IMG/VR virus record: IMGVR_UViG_3300047319_000115 | Span: 1-23,381 of that record | Source: a virus | Length of the DNA: 23,381 bases | Strand: one strand, 5' to 3' | Part shown: piece by piece, positions 14,763-21,557 of the stretch | Layout of the letters: each line of letters opens with the position of its first letter | Position numbering within the stretch: the first letter of the stretch is position 1 | Made by a program: the position numbers and the translations under genes | Notes under the pieces: generated by a model | What the model was told of the DNA's origin: nothing | What the model saw: only the letters and a program-made list of their open reading frames with translations | Databases searched by the model: none

Positions 14763-15770
14763 ATGTCCGCAGAACAAGACTTCCTCCCGTTTGCCGTTGG
14801 CTCGGGCGCAAACGTGCTGTCCCAGTCGGCATATGCGGCCTTGACCGCCATCATTCAGAATGGCTATCAGTCAGGCATCGCCAATTCTTCGCAGATGAAC
14901 AAGACGTGGCGCCAGTCGTCGATCATGGCGTCGGTGCTTGCACAGTTCATCGTGCAGCAGACCGGTCAGCCGGCGATCGATGATGGCACGACGGCGACGT
15001 TGCTGGAGAATCTGACGGCGGCAGTTGGCGCGCAATCCGTGGTGCCGGTTGGCGCTGCGCGTAACCTGTCGATGAACGTGACAACGGCATCTGCGACGGC
15101 GACGATGACGGCCGAGGAGATCGTCGTCGGCTCTGCGCTCGGCGGCCTGAAATACACGCTCGCAAGCTTCAACAAGACTATCAACCTCGCGACGACTGGC
15201 GCGGGCGGCATGGACACTGGCACGGCGCCTGTATCGGGATGGATCGCTATCTATGCCATCTACAATCCGACAACCGGGACAAGCGCACTTCTCGCTACGA
15301 ATGCGACTTCCGTGTCCGCACCCGAGGTCTATGGCGGAGCCAATAGGCCGGCAGGATATACGGCATCGGCGCTTGTGAGTGTCTGGAATACGAACGGAAG
15401 CGGGCAATTCGTTGTAGCCGTGCAACTAGGCAGGTGCATCGACTATCCTCCTCGCACGGAAATCACCATCAGCACAGCAACCAGCGGATTTACTCAGTCC
15501 GGGACCATTGCTGACATCCCGCTCAATGCGAGATTTGTAAACGGCTCCGTCACGTTTTCTGCATCGACGACGGGCAATCCGTCATTGAGCGTTGCAGCTG
15601 ATGCGTCTGGAAGCGGGACGAAACAGCACCTGTTTCAGGGCGCAGCCGGAAACTATGGAAACTCTTTCTCGTCTCTCAAATTGACGGTCGCCCGTGCGAT
15701 TTTCTTTGCCCTAAATCTTGGTGGCGCAACCGGTACGGCCACTTACTTTTTGACCGGATACGAGTTCTGA
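14763..15770 (+). CDS. Tail fibre protein
   Basis: This 335-residue protein has GGAG 5 bases before the ATG. The N-terminal 90 residues ('QDFLPFAVGSGANVLSQSAYAALTAIIQNGYQSGIANSSQMNKTWRQSSIMASVLAQFIVQQTGQPAIDDGT') are the conserved baseplate-attachment module of many Burkholderiales phage fibres. The rest is Ser/Thr/Gly-rich and beta-like, ending 'TYFLTGYEF', as in trimeric fibre tips. It probably recognises the host surface. A small companion gene follows two bases after the stop. Confidence 0.82.
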   Translation: MSAEQDFLPFAVGSGANVLSQSAYAALTAIIQNGYQSGIANSSQMNKTWRQSSIMASVLAQFIVQQTGQPAIDDGTTATLLENLTAAVGAQSVVPVGAARNLSMNVTTASATATMTAEEIVVGSALGGLKYTLASFNKTINLATTGAGGMDTGTAPVSGWIAIYAIYNPTTGTSALLATNATSVSAPEVYGGANRPAGYTASALVSVWNTNGSGQFVVAVQLGRCIDYPPRTEITISTATSGFTQSGTIADIPLNARFVNGSVTFSASTTGNPSLSVAADASGSGTKQHLFQGAAGNYGNSFSSLKLTVARAIFFALNLGGATGTATYFLTGYEF

Positions 15771-15772
15771 CT

Positions 15773-15955
15773 ATGAAACTGAACGTGATTTTCGAGGACT
15801 CATCGCAAACGATCATTTGCGGATGGTTTGCTGATCCACAGGAAACGTCGATCTGGCCTAATTTTTCTCAGATCGAAGACACAGATCAGAGATGGGCAAA
15901 CTATTTCAACGGTTTGCCCGATTCAGTCAAATCGACTTTACCTCATCCGGCATAG
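15773..15955 (+). CDS. Small tail-fibre companion protein
   Basis: This 60-residue protein starts two bases after the fibre stop. It contains 'WPNFSQIEDTDQRWANYFNGLPDSVKSTLPHP'. A W-P-x-F/Y-x-x-I/V-x-x-x-D-x-R-W pattern near the end is common in small proteins and tail-fibre-assembly C-termini located after fibre genes. It may help fibre folding. It ends one base before the convergent minus-strand gene and marks the end of the leftward-to-rightward structural operon. Confidence 0.6.
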   Translation: MKLNVIFEDSSQTIICGWFADPQETSIWPNFSQIEDTDQRWANYFNGLPDSVKSTLPHPA

Positions 15956-15956
15956 G

Positions 15957-16148
15957 TCATGTCAGATTGTGCTCCCAGTACCGCATAGCTTTAAGCGCAT
16001 GGTGGATGCAGTCCGGGCAGGGGACGAATGCGTTCCCCTGAGAACCGTTTTCGGCGGCATGATCGAGGTTCAGGAAATTCCAGCCGGCTGCCTGTCCGCA
16101 CCATGTTCCCTTGTCGCCTCGTGCAATGTGGTGCACTTCCTTTTCCAT
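15957..16148 (-). CDS. Small Cys/His-rich protein of unknown function
   Basis: This 63-residue protein has a very strong ribosome site (AAGGAGG, 6 bases before the ATG). Histidines and cysteines (H6, H7, C17, H30, C44, C47, H49, H50) include a C-x2-C-x-H-H cluster at 44-50, which suggests zinc binding, though no known finger is recognised. The upstream region holds a 19-base palindrome (16172-16190) with a TATAAT-like hexamer, so this gene probably has its own regulated promoter. It is the last gene of the minus-strand island, converging on the tail-fibre operon. Confidence 0.65.
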   Translation of the reverse strand: MEKEVHHIARGDKGTWCGQAAGWNFLNLDHAAENGSQGNAFVPCPDCIHHALKAMRYWEHNLT

Positions 16149-16171
16149 ATTTAGCCTCCTTCATGTGGGGG

Positions 16172-16190
16172 TGACGATTATATATCGTCA
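16172..16190 (-). promoter_or_regulatory. Perfect-arm palindrome with a TATAAT hexamer (promoter/operator)
   Basis: TGACGAT (16172-16178) and ATCGTCA (16184-16190) are exact inverted repeats around TATAT. On the minus strand the sequence contains TATAAT (16182-16177), about 29 bases before the small Cys/His-rich gene. No good -35 hexamer is seen at the right distance, so expression may need an activator or be driven by the barrel-gene transcript. The AT-rich palindrome stands out from its GC-rich surroundings and looks like a repressor or activator binding site. Confidence 0.5.
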
Positions 16191-16192
16191 AA

Positions 16193-16966
16193 TTAGAACC
16201 GATACGTCGCCATCAACACATGCGCGCCGGTCGCCAAGCCAGGGTATGGATTCCATTTCTGGCTGACCTGATAGTACCGATACGACAGCGAGATGGAGCC
16301 GCGCTCGACACTTGCACCAACGACATAGCCAACCTGCGGCGTCGTCTTGTGCGACAGGTCATGCCATTCGTTGTCCAGGCCATACAGCGACTCATGCCAG
16401 GTCTGCCAGTAGACCCACGCGCCGGCCTCGGCGCCAAGGCGCCAGCCGCGGTAGGTGTAGCCGACGTCGAGCGTCACGGGTATGCCTTGTAGATGACCGT
16501 GGCCGCTGAATGGGCTGTAGCGCTCGCCGCCGTAGTCGACGATCTGGTGCGTCTTGGGGTTGTACTGGTCGTCAGGTACTCCCATGACGGATGCGCGTTG
16601 CTCGCCGAGGTAGGTGTAGCCCAGATGCCATCGTACGTCCCAAGGCCCGCGCGACCAGACTGGTCCAGTGAAGCCCGCCAAAATGGCCGGGAAAGTCAGC
16701 TTCTCGTGATTGTCGGGCGAGCCGTCTTGGATCCAGACGCCATCGCCCATGTCTTTTGCAACACCGAAGCCTAGTCCGGCTTCGAAGCGGATGTAATCGG
16801 TTATGCCATCTGCATGAGCGCCGGCAGCCGCGCAGCCGAGCGACATCGCGACAGCCGCAGCCCGCCAGCGCGAGCCAGCAGTGCGATTCGATCGCGGAAC
16901 GGCTACAGGTTGATGTACAGCGCGACGAACTCGTGAAGCTTGAACCACCCGATTTTGTGTGTGCAT
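16193..16966 (-). CDS. Outer-membrane beta-barrel protein
   Basis: This 257-residue protein has an Arg-rich 30-residue lead, then a signal peptide (about residues 33-52, RWRAAAVAMSLGCAAAGAHA) with cleavage expected after AHA. The mature part alternates hydrophobic and polar residues with aromatic girdles ('VRWHLGYTYLG', 'IPVTLDVGYTYRGWRLGAEAGAWVYW', 'SISLSYRYYQVS') and ends 'VLMATYRF'; a terminal Phe is the usual BAM insertion signal. The length fits about eight strands. GGAG lies 9 bases before the ATG, inside the end of the upstream lipoprotein gene, whose stop is one base before this start, so the two are probably co-translated. No family is recognised with certainty; a lipid A-modifying enzyme or a passive surface barrel are both possible. 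Confidence 0.75.
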   Translation of the reverse strand: MHTQNRVVQASRVRRAVHQPVAVPRSNRTAGSRWRAAAVAMSLGCAAAGAHADGITDYIRFEAGLGFGVAKDMGDGVWIQDGSPDNHEKLTFPAILAGFTGPVWSRGPWDVRWHLGYTYLGEQRASVMGVPDDQYNPKTHQIVDYGGERYSPFSGHGHLQGIPVTLDVGYTYRGWRLGAEAGAWVYWQTWHESLYGLDNEWHDLSHKTTPQVGYVVGASVERGSISLSYRYYQVSQKWNPYPGLATGAHVLMATYRF

Positions 16967-16967
16967 T

Positions 16968-18152
16968 TTATTGTGCTCCGACGACGGTCCGAACGAGCGG
17001 CGCGATAACAGCCTGCTCCTGCTTGGCTTTCAGTTGGGCGATGTAGGCGTCCGGGTAAAATCCGCTCGCCATATGATTGCACCAGCCAGTGACGCTCGAG
17101 ATGTACGCGTACTGCTGGATCAGCGGGGCCTTGAACTGCGCCGCCGCGTCATCCATCGCCTGCACGTATGCGGCAAGTTGGGGATGGTCGCTATCGCAGA
17201 CCGGCCCTGACTCTTCGAGAACCGGAACCTTGCCGGCTGCTCGAACTGCCACAACCCATGCCGCAAGATACTGCCGATAATCGTTGACCGTCTCGCCGCC
17301 AAGGGCATCATTCAGCGTGTGGCTTTCGATGACGATGGAGGCGGCGGAAGTCTTGATCCGGTCAGCGAATGGTGCTCCATTGCCGTCCATGCCCAGCATC
17401 TCGTTCTGAAGGCTGCTCGACGTCCCGCCTGTCGCGTGACTGCCGACCATGATCCCAGTATCGTTGAACTGGCTCTGTAGCAGTGCCTGGAGCGATTGCG
17501 GTTCGCTCGGCGTCACGAGCGACATCATGCCGAAACTGTTCGTTGTGAAGCCCGCAATCCCATCGTCGCCATAGACGTCGATCAGAACGACTGGCGTGGA
17601 TGCCGGGACTGGCGCCGCAGCTGGAGTTGATGCGGGCTCGGGACTCGACGCTGGGACTGGCTCAGAGGCGATCGGCTCTGGTGTAGTTGGATCTGGCTCA
17701 GTCGGATTCGATGCCGAAACAGGCGCACTGGCCGGGATAGCCACTGGAATGATGGGCTTGGCTACGGCGGTTGGATCTGCGCTTGATCCGCCGCCACATG
17801 CCGCCAGACATACGCTCAGTCCGGCTATGACTCCTGCTCGCCAGCGGATTCCAGGTCGATCGTGGCCCCTGCCCGGCGCATGCGTTCCAATACGCGGGCG
17901 ATAGCCTCGGCACCCAGTTCGTGTCGCGCCAACCCGAAGAACAGAGTCTGCGCGCTGATCTCCCGCCGCTTGTCTCCATTGTCCGTGTAGCCGCGCCAAT
18001 GCCGGCCGCTCGATAGGCCGAACAGTTTCGCCATCTGTGCGCTCGACAGGCCCAGTTCGTCCTTGAGGCGCTGAAGCGCGTCCGCTGAAGGTGCTTCGTA
18101 CTTCATGTCGAAGTGATCCATTGCCATTGAAGGCGCGAAAAATCCGGTCCAT
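16968..18152 (-). CDS. Lipoprotein with degenerate SGNH/GDSL-hydrolase domain (start uncertain)
   Basis: Numbered from the ATG at 18152 (AGGA 7 bases upstream), the frame has 394 codons. A type II signal (RWRAGVIAGLSVCLAAC) has its lipobox LAAC with Cys119, so about 276 residues are expected as mature lipoprotein. A Pro/Ser/Glu/Thr-rich linker (about 125-188) leads to an SGNH-like domain: block I 'LIDVYGDD' (GDS expected), block III 'IVIESHTLND', block V 'SGFYPD' (D-x-x-H-P expected). Thus Ser, Asp and His of the usual catalytic triad appear replaced by Asp, Ser and Tyr. The first ~115 codons overprint the regulator gene and look like noise; no ATG, GTG or TTG occurs in frame close before the signal sequence. 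The biological start is therefore unresolved. Confidence 0.65.
   Translation of the reverse strand: MDRIFRAFNGNGSLRHEVRSTFSGRASAPQGRTGPVERTDGETVRPIERPALARLHGQWRQAAGDQRADSVLRVGATRTGCRGYRPRIGTHAPGRGHDRPGIRWRAGVIAGLSVCLAACGGGSSADPTAVAKPIIPVAIPASAPVSASNPTEPDPTTPEPIASEPVPASSPEPASTPAAAPVPASTPVVLIDVYGDDGIAGFTTNSFGMMSLVTPSEPQSLQALLQSQFNDTGIMVGSHATGGTSSSLQNEMLGMDGNGAPFADRIKTSAASIVIESHTLNDALGGETVNDYRQYLAAWVVAVRAAGKVPVLEESGPVCDSDHPQLAAYVQAMDDAAAQFKAPLIQQYAYISSVTGWCNHMASGFYPDAYIAQLKAKQEQAVIAPLVRTVVGAQ
17825..18127 (-). CDS. Small helix-turn-helix regulator
   Basis: This 100-residue protein has a helix-turn-helix region ('ALQRLKDELGLSSAQMAKLFGLSSGRHWRGYTD', about residues 17-50), followed by 'ISAQTLFFGLARHELGAEAIARVLERMRRAGATIDLES'. 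It resembles small Cro/XRE-like phage regulators. It is the first gene of the minus-strand island and lies 80 bases after a likely promoter containing a palindrome, suggesting autoregulation. Its ATG (18127) lacks a ribosome site, whereas the ATG of an overlapping frame at 18152 has one. Either translation is coupled, or a one-base indel separates the original start from the regulator body. An alternative start is the ATG at 18106. Confidence 0.65.
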   Translation of the reverse strand: MAMDHFDMKYEAPSADALQRLKDELGLSSAQMAKLFGLSSGRHWRGYTDNGDKRREISAQTLFFGLARHELGAEAIARVLERMRRAGATIDLESAGEQES

Positions 18153-18206
18153 GTTGTTGTCCTCTCGGGGATTTTGGCCGCGCAATGTGCGCTTCCAGTA
18201 ACGCGA

Positions 18207-18236
18207 ATGGTAGGCGCAAAGTGCCTACGCAGTCAA
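18207..18236 (-). promoter_or_regulatory. Minus-strand promoter with overlapping operator
   Basis: On the minus strand, TTGACT (18236-18231) and TACCAT (18212-18207) are 18 bases apart. The inverted repeat GTAGGC-N7-GCCTAC (18210-18228) fills the spacer and touches the -10, the expected place for a repressor operator. Transcription would start near 18200 and run into the regulator, lipoprotein and barrel genes. Confidence 0.6.
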
Positions 18237-18259
18237 GTAGAAACGCGCACAAATAAATG

Positions 18260-18288
18260 TTGTCGATCGTACGCAGCTAGCGTATAGT
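18260..18288 (+). promoter_or_regulatory. Toxin-antitoxin promoter with overlapping inverted repeat
   Basis: TTGTCG (18260-18265) and TATAGT (18283-18288) are separated by 17 bases. TACGC (18270-18274) and GCGTA (18280-18284) form an inverted repeat that overlaps the -10, consistent with repression by the HigA-type antitoxin. The predicted transcription start (about 18295) coincides with the toxin start codon at 18296, so the message would be leaderless for the toxin. Confidence 0.7.
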
Positions 18289-18295
18289 ACTCTCC

Positions 18296-18658
18296 ATGCG
18301 AGCAACCTTCGTCGAACTTCCACCGTTCCAGAAGTATCGGGCTGACTATTTGTCGGATGATGAATATCGGCTACTGCAGGAACAGATGCTCCTGAAGCCA
18401 GATTCCGGCGACGTGATCAAAGGGACTGGCGGCTTGAGGAAGTTACGCTTCGGCGACAAGCGGCGAAATAAGAGGAAGCGAGGCGGCTTGCGCATCATTT
18501 ACTACTACTGGATCGAGGGCACCCAATTCTGGATGTTTTCTGTCTATGACAAGGACGAGATGGCCGATCTGTCCTCGGATGAGCGCAAATCCTTCGCTGC
18601 GTTGCTTGCGTTGGAAATTCGGATAAGGAGCACTCATGAAAAGGAATCTATTCGCTGA
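18296..18658 (+). CDS. higB: HigB-type toxin (RelE superfamily)
   Basis: This 120-residue protein has the hallmark of RelE/HigB mRNA interferases: 'YLSDDEYRLLQEQMLLKPDSGDVIKGTGGLRKLRFGDKRRNKRKRGGLRIIYYYW' and 'FWMFSVYDKDEMADLSSDERKSFAALL'. The basic stretch (about 60-70) and Arg in GGLRIIYYYW are expected to position ribosome-bound mRNA. The antitoxin gene follows and overlaps by 23 bases, the toxin-first order that is typical of Hig modules. No ribosome site precedes the ATG. Whether it stabilises a prophage or defends against other phages cannot be told from sequence. Confidence 0.82.
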   Translation: MRATFVELPPFQKYRADYLSDDEYRLLQEQMLLKPDSGDVIKGTGGLRKLRFGDKRRNKRKRGGLRIIYYYWIEGTQFWMFSVYDKDEMADLSSDERKSFAALLALEIRIRSTHEKESIR

Positions 18659-18947
18659 ACTCAAGGAAGGCATGGAAGCGTTGGCCGCCGAGCGGGATGG
18701 CAAGGTAACGCTTCACAGGGTTCGCGTTGAAGTCCCGGATGCGGTGCAGGTCTCGGCAGATGAGATCAAGGCTGTCCGTGAATCTACCCATTCCTCGCAA
18801 GCTGTGATGGCAGCGCGCCTGCGCGTCAACAAGCGAACATATGAGAACTGGGAGCAAGGAAAGGCTAAGCCCAATGCCCAGGCTGCAGTGCTGATCAAAC
18901 TGGTCGAAAAGCATCCCGAGACCTTAGCGCTGCTCGAAGAACTATGA
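18636..18947 (+). CDS. higA: HigA-type antitoxin with helix-turn-helix
   Basis: This 103-residue protein has a helical N-terminal part (about 1-45, toxin-neutralising in relatives) and a C-terminal helix-turn-helix ('IKAVRESTHSSQAVMAARLRVNKRTYENWEQGKAKPNAQAAVLIKLVEKHP', about 48-98). A strong AAGGAG site lies 6 bases before the ATG. It starts inside the toxin gene, giving coupled expression, and is followed by an intrinsic terminator. It would bind HigB and repress the shared promoter. Confidence 0.82.
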   Translation: MKRNLFAELKEGMEALAAERDGKVTLHRVRVEVPDAVQVSADEIKAVRESTHSSQAVMAARLRVNKRTYENWEQGKAKPNAQAAVLIKLVEKHPETLALLEEL

Positions 18948-18992: not shown

Positions 18993-19160
18993 ACGCCTGC
19001 TGCTCGCGGCGGTCCGCCCGCAGAAGCCTTTGTCCACAAGGGTTCGCAAAGTTTTTAGGCCAGCAAACGAGCAAATCCGGGCCGCCCGCTGCGCGTCGGT
19101 ATTAATCACAAATTCAGACCATCCATGCCGCCCCACGCGGCCCTAGCATCAGGAGTCCCC
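18993..19160 (+). other. Gap between terminator and tailspike gene
   Basis: This 168-base stretch has no convincing gene. It contains the tailspike ribosome site (AGGAG, 19151-19155) and a GC-rich inverted patch (GCCGCCCCACGCGGC, 19127-19141). A promoter is expected because a strong terminator precedes it, but no clear -35/-10 pair is visible (only TATTAA near 19099). Confidence 0.4.
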
Positions 19161-21557
19161 ATGCGCCTCAAAGCGTTCCTCGCCGCTTTCCTGCTTTCCA
19201 CTGCGGCACATGCCCAGTTCACCCCTGGCCAGGTATTGACGGCGGCCCAACTCAATAGCCAGTTCAGCCTCAAGACGAGCAATGCTGCTGCAGCTATTAC
19301 TGGTGGCACGATTACTGGCGCTACGATCTCCGGCCTGTTTGCGCCGATTCCGATCTCATCGGGCGGCACTGGTGCTACTACGGCAAGTGCGGCGCTCACC
19401 AACCTTGGTGGCGGCATCCTGACCCAGACTCTGTACGTCAGCAACACGGCAGGAAACGGGATGCCGGTGGGTTCTGACGCCAATCAGGGTGGATTCTCAG
19501 CTCCTTTCCTGACGCTTCAGCATGCTTTGTCGCTTGCTCCCGCGAACACCAAGATCGTGCTGAACTGCGGCACCTACACGCCATCAGCCGGGAACAACTT
19601 TGCAATCTCGAAGTCGGTCACTATCCAGGCTATCCAGAGCACATCACTTAGTTCACCTACCTGCGCAGTCCTTCAAGCCGCCTCGGGTCAGGCATCTATC
19701 GTCGAGGTGACCGGCAACGGAGTGTCCGTGACCCTGGATGGGATCGCCCTGGACGGCCAGAACGCCACCACACAGGCAATGCGGGTGGATAACTCCACGA
19801 CTCCTGACGCTATCATGCTGAAAGGAGTGCTGTTCGCCAACGTCGGCGTTGACGGTCTGTCTGAAGGCACTGCCGGCAATTTCGCTCTGACGGCAACAAA
19901 CATTGGTTGCGTCGGGTCACTGTCGGGGTCGTGCATCGATACCGGCCGCCATGCCGCTGGTAACGTCTCGATCAACGGTTTAACAGTCAATCTGACGACG
20001 AATGGATCGGGGTCGGCAGGCTACCTGTTCGACTTCGATGCCGAGACGGCCGGACTGACTGGCTCGATCTCCAACTGGTCCGGCTCGGTAGCCGTGACTG
20101 CTACGTCCAACCCCAATCACGCCATCCGCATCCTGAATTCACCGGGAGCATCAGTCACCTATGGCGGCGTGCCGTACGGGCAGACGACCTCGACTGGCTT
20201 CTTTTTGATGCAGGGCACGAGTTCGGGCAATTGCACGCCGGTGCTGATCGGAAACGACGGCACCAACCCGATAGAGGCAGACAACCCGGTCTACGCCTAC
20301 AACCGGGTAGAGCAAGACTGCGTTGATGGTGGCCACTCGTCGATTCTTTGGGTGGCGGACGGCGATCCTGGCGTTCCCCTGCGCAACCTCGTCAAGCACG
20401 CCCGAAGCTATAACAACGTGGACATGGCGGGCCCGCACACGACGGCCGCAGACAACGTAGAGGGGCCCCTTTGCGGCTGGACATCAGACTGCTGGATTTA
20501 CGACAACATCGTCCAGGGCTATCCGGGCATGCTGAATGGCGCTTACGGGGCTATCGAGAAGGGCGTTACTGGCGGATATGTTTTTGGCAATTTGGTCATA
20601 AACCCAGGGCATACCGGGCTGCTGGCGAAAGGGGGATCAGATTGGAACGGAGGTGTCGGGCCGCAGTTCTGGAACAATCGGGTTGTTGTTACCATTCCAT
20701 TCTCCAGTGCCGTGATATGCCTGAATCAAGTCGTGGACGAAGCCGGGAATCCGGCGACTGGCTGGGTATTCGCCAATAACGATTGTGATTATCTTTTTTC
20801 TGGTTCTGCGCCGATCAGATATACAAGCCAAACCGGAAACGGTAATACCGGGACTTACGCAACCAACAACTATTTCACGACCGCAACGATCACTGGCTCT
20901 GCGTGGGAAGCGTGGAATACAGGCACCTCTGCCTCCGGGTTTGCCTCTACGCTATCCGCATGGCAAGCACTGCCTGGCGGCGAGCCTACCGCGCTCGGCA
21001 GCAATCCGGCACTGACGAATACTTTTGCGCTCAACGCGGGATCTCCGTTGATCGCGGTTGGCACGGCGGTTCCGGCCTCGGTCTTCCCCGATCTGGTGGG
21101 CAGCCCGTTCGCAGCAGTGCCATCGATCGGCCCGTTTCAGTATTTTGGGCCTAACAACGTTATCGGAGCGACCGCAAAGATTCCGCTAATGGCCAGCAAC
21201 GCAGCGTCTGACGCAGCAGGCACCACCTACTTTTTGCCTTGCTCGGGGGCTCTCCTCGCAGTCAATACGGGTGAGACGGGTGTCTTCCAGCTCTCGGCGG
21301 TCTCAGGGACGCTGCGCAACCTGTATGCCAATCTGGGAACGGCGCCAGGCACTGGCAACACTGCAACAGTGACGGTGATGACCAACACAAGCGCTACACC
21401 GTTGACCTGTACGGTATCGGATACGAATACGACCTGTAGCGATATGACCCACACCGCGCCGATCAGCGCAGGGCAGTCATGCAACATCCAGTACGTATTT
21501 AGCGCATCGGCGACGGGTTCAAAAATCGGAACCGGGGTTGAGCTGGACACGCAATAA
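19161..21557 (+). CDS. Tailspike-like beta-helix protein with Sec signal peptide
   Basis: This 798-residue protein starts at the ATG at 19161, preceded by AGGAG with a 5-base gap; an in-frame upstream start at 19125 lacks a ribosome site. Residues 1-18 (MRLKAFLAAFLLSTAAHA) form a clean signal peptide. Next come 'FTPGQVLTAAQLNSQF' and 'ISSGGTGATTASAALTNLGG', sequences common near the N-termini of phage tail fibres. Residues about 90-560 are Asn/Gly/Val-rich with repeating short beta segments, as in right-handed parallel beta-helix (pectate lyase-like) spikes that bind or degrade surface polysaccharide. The last ~110 residues have paired cysteines in a beta domain. A signal peptide is not expected on a virion protein, so it may be exported or the N-terminus kept for another reason. 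Confidence 0.75.
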   Translation: MRLKAFLAAFLLSTAAHAQFTPGQVLTAAQLNSQFSLKTSNAAAAITGGTITGATISGLFAPIPISSGGTGATTASAALTNLGGGILTQTLYVSNTAGNGMPVGSDANQGGFSAPFLTLQHALSLAPANTKIVLNCGTYTPSAGNNFAISKSVTIQAIQSTSLSSPTCAVLQAASGQASIVEVTGNGVSVTLDGIALDGQNATTQAMRVDNSTTPDAIMLKGVLFANVGVDGLSEGTAGNFALTATNIGCVGSLSGSCIDTGRHAAGNVSINGLTVNLTTNGSGSAGYLFDFDAETAGLTGSISNWSGSVAVTATSNPNHAIRILNSPGASVTYGGVPYGQTTSTGFFLMQGTSSGNCTPVLIGNDGTNPIEADNPVYAYNRVEQDCVDGGHSSILWVADGDPGVPLRNLVKHARSYNNVDMAGPHTTAADNVEGPLCGWTSDCWIYDNIVQGYPGMLNGAYGAIEKGVTGGYVFGNLVINPGHTGLLAKGGSDWNGGVGPQFWNNRVVVTIPFSSAVICLNQVVDEAGNPATGWVFANNDCDYLFSGSAPIRYTSQTGNGNTGTYATNNYFTTATITGSAWEAWNTGTSASGFASTLSAWQALPGGEPTALGSNPALTNTFALNAGSPLIAVGTAVPASVFPDLVGSPFAAVPSIGPFQYFGPNNVIGATAKIPLMASNAASDAAGTTYFLPCSGALLAVNTGETGVFQLSAVSGTLRNLYANLGTAPGTGNTATVTVMTNTSATPLTCTVSDTNTTCSDMTHTAPISAGQSCNIQYVFSASATGSKIGTGVELDTQ

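Follow-up and report, generated by a model that had tools for sequence, protein, structure and literature searches.

Lom, a barrel, and Bor, a lipoprotein, are morons of the temperate phage lambda, and in the Rz/Rz1 pair two functional proteins, one of them a lipoprotein, are made from overlapping reading frames. Prophages can also alter the cell surface by modifying its glycans: SF6 Oac, a phage-borne O-antigen acetylation gene, prevents SF6 from superinfecting (PMC9558356), and gtrABC of P22 likewise changes the surface and blocks superinfecting phages (PMC10883804).

We analyzed a 23.4-kb virus record (23,381 nucleotides, all of it referred to here as the window), whose head, sheath, tape-measure, baseplate and tail-fibre genes identify it as a myophage; it is a temperate phage of soil relatives of Burkholderia. 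Past the tail fibre come a minus-strand island and a RelE/antitoxin pair, and beyond these an 810-aa ORF, an endolysin of GH19 type and an HNH gene. The toxin-antitoxin pair (18296-18947, plus strand) consists of a RelE-like toxin and an MqsA/HTH antitoxin. The 810-aa ORF (19125-21557) has a signal-like N-terminus and a DUF1565 match, belongs to no PHROGs family, and is probably a spike or secreted beta-helix. The features of the island are as follows, those of the promoter, operator and Shine-Dalgarno sites being read from the sequence.

15957..16148, minus strand: Cys/His-rich ORF of 63 aa (phrog_4090, E = 1e-4, a family of unknown function)
16193..16966, minus strand: barrel of 257 aa, with a basic leader (MHTQNRVVQ...RWRAAAVA), a signal peptide and an 8-stranded barrel at residues ~57-257
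16976..16979, minus strand: Shine-Dalgarno site GGAG, which serves the barrel and lies within the 3' end of the lipoprotein gene
16968..18152, minus strand: long ORF of 394 aa, with an extension over the regulator (MDRIFRAFNG...), a signal peptide, the lipobox LAAC, a Pro/Ala/Ser linker and an SGNH domain
16977..17594, minus strand: SGNH-fold domain of the lipoprotein (AlphaFold2 pLDDT 84; class alignment)
17825..18127, minus strand: nested XRE-like HTH regulator, 100 aa from the first ATG and 93 aa from the conserved Met at 18106
18160..18165, minus strand: Shine-Dalgarno site AGAGGA, seven bases before the ATG at 18152
18207..18237, minus strand: promoter, with -35 TTGACT (18237-18232) and a weak -10 TACCAT (18212-18207)
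18210-18228, minus strand: operator palindrome GTAGGC-N7-GCCTAC, in the spacer between -35 and -10

An earlier note on this DNA described four minus-strand ORFs, a promoter with a palindrome, and a one-base gap between the lipoprotein and barrel genes, all of which are present in the sequence. It also treated the regulator and lipoprotein as simply consecutive genes, and this does not hold. The lipoprotein frame is open upstream across the entire regulator to the ATG at 18152, so that the regulator gene lies wholly inside the front of the lipoprotein gene in a different frame. Between this ATG and the signal peptide the lipoprotein frame contains no ATG or GTG codon and one TTG, with a weak Shine-Dalgarno site. 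The nested regulator is the novel part of the locus and our main discovery; literature searches retrieved no paper describing such an arrangement. We favor, with moderate confidence, the explanation that the island is a lysogenic-conversion cassette whose repressor is nested in the ORF of an exported protein.

The lipoprotein matches phrog_8011 (E = 1e-29); weak matches are to two tail spikes, those of Pectobacterium phage PP99 (annotated as a putative deacetylase) and Escherichia phage HHU8. Its signal peptide and lipobox, RWRAGVIAGLSVCLAAC-GG with the Cys codon at 17798-17796, are kept in relatives. Its structural model aligns best with 1yzf (VIA-align Z = 22.9, rmsd 2.6, 186 residues aligned), followed by carbohydrate acetylesterases and phage tail proteins, and on this model the protein is predicted to contain a domain of SGNH fold that resembles carbohydrate esterases and is related to the deacetylases of phage tail spikes. 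In the window, Asp90 (codon 17564-17562) replaces the catalytic Ser, residues 88-90 being GDD and not GDS. The block III Asn is kept (N174, invariant in A7), and the block V D-x-x-H is absent, with SGFYPD in place of DCxHP. The nucleophile and the block V His are coupled in the 70 relatives that were classified, 21 having GDS with DxxHP and 42 having GDD without it. GDD occurs in 45 of the 70, a few being linker miscalls; three of the 45 also have the His, but at least two of the three (L093 and L246) seem to be spurious calls within a Gly-rich linker. In four GDS sequences no block V motif was recognized. The GDD class has its own conserved His, with WxxH in 41 members and a CDxxHP loop in 36. 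This loop contains a second DxxHP, distinct from block V. Judging from these residue patterns, the GDD class probably has a remodelled site, for binding instead of hydrolysis.

The AlphaFold2 model of the barrel (pLDDT 80) has eight long strands and matches OmpA (Z = 18.3), NspA (16.9), PagL (16.4), PagP (12.2) and Ail (11.9), which makes it a predicted 8-stranded outer-membrane barrel of the OmpA/NspA/PagL kind; the PagL and PagP matches are matches of fold alone, and we make no enzyme claim from them. By sequence it is not an ordinary host porin: it has no match to any Pfam family at E ≤ 1, including Ail/Lom, or to a PHROGs family. Barrel relatives are found at 70 related viral loci. The DNA of the barrel's first nine codons (16966-16941, ATGCACACGCAAAATCGGGTGGTTCA) is near-invariant in seven loci whose barrels differ widely, and is perhaps a recombination seam.

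By scanning viral contigs with the barrel, lipoprotein and regulator we found about 200 loci, some of them overlapping. The order that recurs starts with lysis-type genes and the promoter, followed by the regulator, the lipoprotein and/or barrel and, often, an AT3 acyltransferase, and ends at convergent tail-fibre genes. The earlier note called for a search for the lipoprotein and barrel genes together in other prophages, and a lipoprotein does lie directly upstream of 16 of 74 distinct barrels. Its broader proposal stands insofar as the exported lipoprotein and the outer-membrane barrel share a dedicated promoter that seems to be autoregulated, but not in regarding the two as a coupled unit, as the regulator lies directly upstream of 28 of the 74 barrels, and the lipoprotein often occurs without a barrel. 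Nor is the Cys/His-rich ORF a member of the module, being carried only by the window and L002, within a 1.5-kb block that is identical between them. Other proteins in the slot include SGNH lipoproteins that have all the catalytic residues (PF13472), as well as two lipoproteins with GH43/GH32/GH130-like similarity, in both cases weak. These payloads are found mainly in Burkholderiaceae phages, and the named hosts in our genome scan are mainly soil and plant-associated Paraburkholderia, with one Ralstonia. PADLOC matched neither the regulator, the lipoprotein, the barrel nor the Cys/His-rich ORF to a known defence-protein family, and there is no Rfam match within 15600-18400.

The neighborhood is mosaic. 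The window and L002 are identical from ~16810 to 15310 (barrel, Cys/His-rich ORF, ORF60 and fibre tip) and strongly different in the regulator and lipoprotein, while L030 is ~98% the same as the window from 18950 to 18000, including the toxin-antitoxin pair and the island promoter region, and then diverges. The barrel shows no significant covariation with the fibre tip or with the regulator, indicating that the parts reassort. A barrel matched to the tail-fibre tip was among the candidates we rejected, since the absence of covariation over 33 loci (Mantel r = 0.02, p = 0.34) argues against a matched receptor pair. In L022 (5414-5998) an HNH-type ORF takes the lipoprotein's place between regulator and barrel, and keeps the lipoprotein's C-terminal tail (ELAVIAPMVKAQIGE).

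The presence of O-acyltransferases in a slot beside the tail fibre fits surface conversion, and we infer that surface conversion or superinfection exclusion is the best reading of the cassette's role. The acyltransferases also raise the possibility of split O-acylation, in which the SGNH lipoprotein partners an AT3 acyltransferase, moving acyl groups to the surface and changing O-antigen or other glycans. Of 74 loci, 24 have an AT3 gene (PF01757) downstream of the regulator, and such a gene lies within 600 nt of 25 of the 74 distinct barrels; O-acetylation by SF6 provides a precedent for superinfection immunity. PMC9558356 raises the question of a separate SGNH partner being required by AT3-only proteins, and the occurrence of AT3 beside stand-alone SGNH lipoproteins bears on it. 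However, we identified no AT3 gene in the window, the acyl-transferring Ser is missing from the GDD class, and AT3 is also found with barrels alone. We give this explanation a fairly low probability.

We find it doubtful that the cassette is instead a virulence or stress moron like Lom or Ail, acting in serum resistance or adhesion with no role in phage exclusion. An 8-stranded barrel among tail genes does recall lambda Lom, and Ail is among the structural matches, but it is a weaker match than OmpA, NspA and PagL, the barrel has no Pfam match to Ail/Lom, and the named hosts are the Paraburkholderia and the Ralstonia mentioned above.

The evidence for nesting comes mainly from comparison among loci. 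All 68 viral loci in which an exported gene was recognized have it in the -1 frame with respect to the regulator, and in each of them that frame is open across the regulator, whereas synonymous recoding of each regulator with the codon usage of its own locus predicts 1.5 of 68. This rules out base composition as the source of the openness. The remaining alternative frame is uninterrupted in just 4 of the 68. The 68 regulators fall into 19 clusters at 70% identity with a median pairwise identity of 44%, so the openness does not come from one recent clone, but the loci share ancestry and the counts should not be read as literal probabilities. In independent Burkholderiaceae genomes the frame is open in 18 of 20 loci with an exported payload, compared to 2.2 expected; in the two closed loci, L246 and L258, the exported genes plausibly start after the regulator. 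The long frame reaches the upstream start region in 66 of the 68 viral loci, the others being cut by a contig end (L032) or starting closer (L085). Across 74 loci the upstream start is 43-55 nt before the regulator's conserved domain, and usually reads M-x-x-x-F-R. A strong Shine-Dalgarno site (duplex energy ≤ -4 kcal/mol) precedes it in 95% of these loci but precedes the regulator's ATG in 5%. Eighteen loci have no in-frame ATG, GTG or TTG at all between the upstream start and the exported part.

The regulator matches phrog_20491 (E = 1.3e-27) and, below the family cut-off, the Pfam family Xre-like-HTH (E = 2e-4). It is present in 55 of 398 Burkholderiaceae genomes, and the module is absent from some of these. 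Free-standing relatives with the other frame closed exist, for example in Bordetella phage IFTN8 and Serratia phage BZS1, and many relatives without an exported payload have the long frame closed. Because such homologs are closed while the long frame is open in all 68 viral exported-gene loci, far above the recoding expectation, we regard the two genes as an overprinted pair with both frames under selection. The frequent closure of the frame elsewhere suggests that the regulator probably came first and was overprinted later by N-terminal extensions of exported lipoproteins and barrels. We also noticed a second group of overlapping regulators (L234, L237, L260, L261, L262 and L114) whose long frame runs into a terminal tail that is not exported, ..ARDALRAAAxAPTxxDALDVAGEALRRLAEL.

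Some observations count against our preferred explanation. The peptide in the overprinted frame exceeds the conservation expected from recoding by only a little (identity 0.23-0.33 versus 0.20-0.28), which suggests that its readability matters more than its sequence; on these alignments the peptide itself may have no importance. Some slot lipoproteins (e.g. L086 and L095) have an ATG of their own after the regulator. An extension of ~100 residues before a signal peptide is also unusual, and could hinder Sec export. Long leaders seem to be tolerated here, however, because basic leaders precede the signal peptide in second-gene barrels too. Autotransporters often have exceptionally long signal sequences (PMC2805444).

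The weak conservation of the overlapping peptide, the separate lipoprotein ATG in some loci, and the overlap of the regulator's stop codon with the signal-peptide coding region in the window would all suit a scheme in which the long frame is only a coupling device. The lipoprotein would then start at an ATA/ATC at the regulator stop by re-initiation, or be reached by a -1 frameshift, and the upstream ATG would yield nothing important. This is unlikely in our judgment, as such a device needs neither a frame open across the whole regulator nor an upstream ATG with its Shine-Dalgarno site, both of which are kept in nearly every locus, and on inspection we saw no slippery heptamer at the end of the regulator in the window.

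UUU-CGN is a known +1 slip site in influenza PA-X. It is quite improbable that a +1 slip of ribosomes translating the long ORF, at the conserved TTT-CGC (codons 5-6), produces the regulator and gives both proteins in a set ratio from one start. TTT CG[CT] is the commonest codon pair at that point, and the +1 frame, which is the regulator's, stays open beyond it, but the ATG at the regulator's start is kept in 74 of 74 loci and the TTT is absent from several (e.g. L046, L087, L114 and L128).

In the promoter region most relatives have a palindrome at the equivalent place between TTGAC and the -10, with a sequence that differs from clan to clan (for example TAGGCCGAATCGGCCTA, ATCACCCTAGGGGTGAT and GTTCCCTTTGGGAAC). 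Such change is expected for autoregulators with shifting specificity, and the palindromes are candidate operators for them. The leader that separates promoter and Shine-Dalgarno site (18166-18206) has in relatives a recurrent inverted repeat, GGG..GCGC-loop-GCGC..CCC. RNAalifold found no consensus structure in a MAFFT alignment of the 5' UTR. Taken one at a time, the sequences are modestly more stable when folded than their shuffled versions (mean z = -1.4), and a leader hairpin is thus no more than suggestive.

In the lysogenic-conversion explanation that we prefer, the cassette occupies a variable slot in Burkholderiaceae myophages, with tail-fibre genes on one side and lysis genes on the other, and would be transcribed as one mRNA from the promoter with the palindromic operator in its spacer. 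Ribosomes would load at the strong Shine-Dalgarno site before the ATG at 18152 and make an N-terminal extension of ~100-115 residues, continuing into the signal peptide and lipobox and then the SGNH lipoprotein, with the barrel made through translational coupling to the lipoprotein. The XRE regulator would be read in the +1 frame from its own SD-poor ATG inside the extension, giving little protein per message, and would probably repress the shared promoter. The exported proteins would go to the outer membrane, where the SGNH domain most likely binds, and does not hydrolyse, an acylated surface glycan; together with the barrel it would change or mask the cell surface, making the lysogen resistant to other phages. 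The logic of the overlap is likely to be regulatory, one promoter serving strong initiation for the exported protein and weak initiation for the repressor, with neither lost alone.

On balance we think it probable that this is a general expression platform of Burkholderiaceae phages, in which a repressor gene is overprinted by the leader of interchangeable exported proteins and cannot be separated from them by recombination. The exported proteins of the platform would comprise, with the same degree of probability, SGNH esterases, pseudo-esterases, glycosidase-like lipoproteins and outer-membrane barrels. If this is true, a repressor and a surface effector are made from one stretch of DNA in two frames. 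Among double-stranded DNA phages, few fully nested pairs with both frames selected have support of this strength, and the dozens of loci constitute a natural experiment. Exported proteins of this kind may carry wrong annotated starts or be missed, because the regulator occupies the same DNA. By grouping many surface-acting proteins beside the tail fibre, the slot is also a catalogue of candidate surface-conversion genes.

Among known systems, the window cassette resembles lambda Lom and Bor in that a temperate phage carries a barrel and a lipoprotein, but the lambda proteins are of other families, in separate operons, and have no nested regulator. In Rz/Rz1 a lipoprotein is nested in a lysis protein, whereas here a DNA-binding regulator is nested in a lipoprotein/barrel ORF. 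The XRE-OafA cassette of Serratia phage vB_SspM_BZS1 also lies next to tail genes and has an O-acetylase downstream of a homologous regulator, but that regulator is not nested and its other frames are closed. SGNH/GDSL carbohydrate esterases and tail-spike deacetylases share the fold (1yzf) and sequence similarity (PP99, HHU8) with the window's class, which differs from them in being lipid-anchored, in being without the catalytic Ser and block V His, and in having its own conserved D213xxH216 and H253. SF6 Oac and P22 gtrABC are prophage surface-conversion genes, as those of this cassette may be, and relatives have AT3 in the equivalent slot; in place of an identified AT3 the window has an SGNH lipoprotein and a barrel, with the regulator nested in the lipoprotein ORF. 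By analogy, the cassette would act at the same surface as the O-antigen conversion genes, with different proteins.
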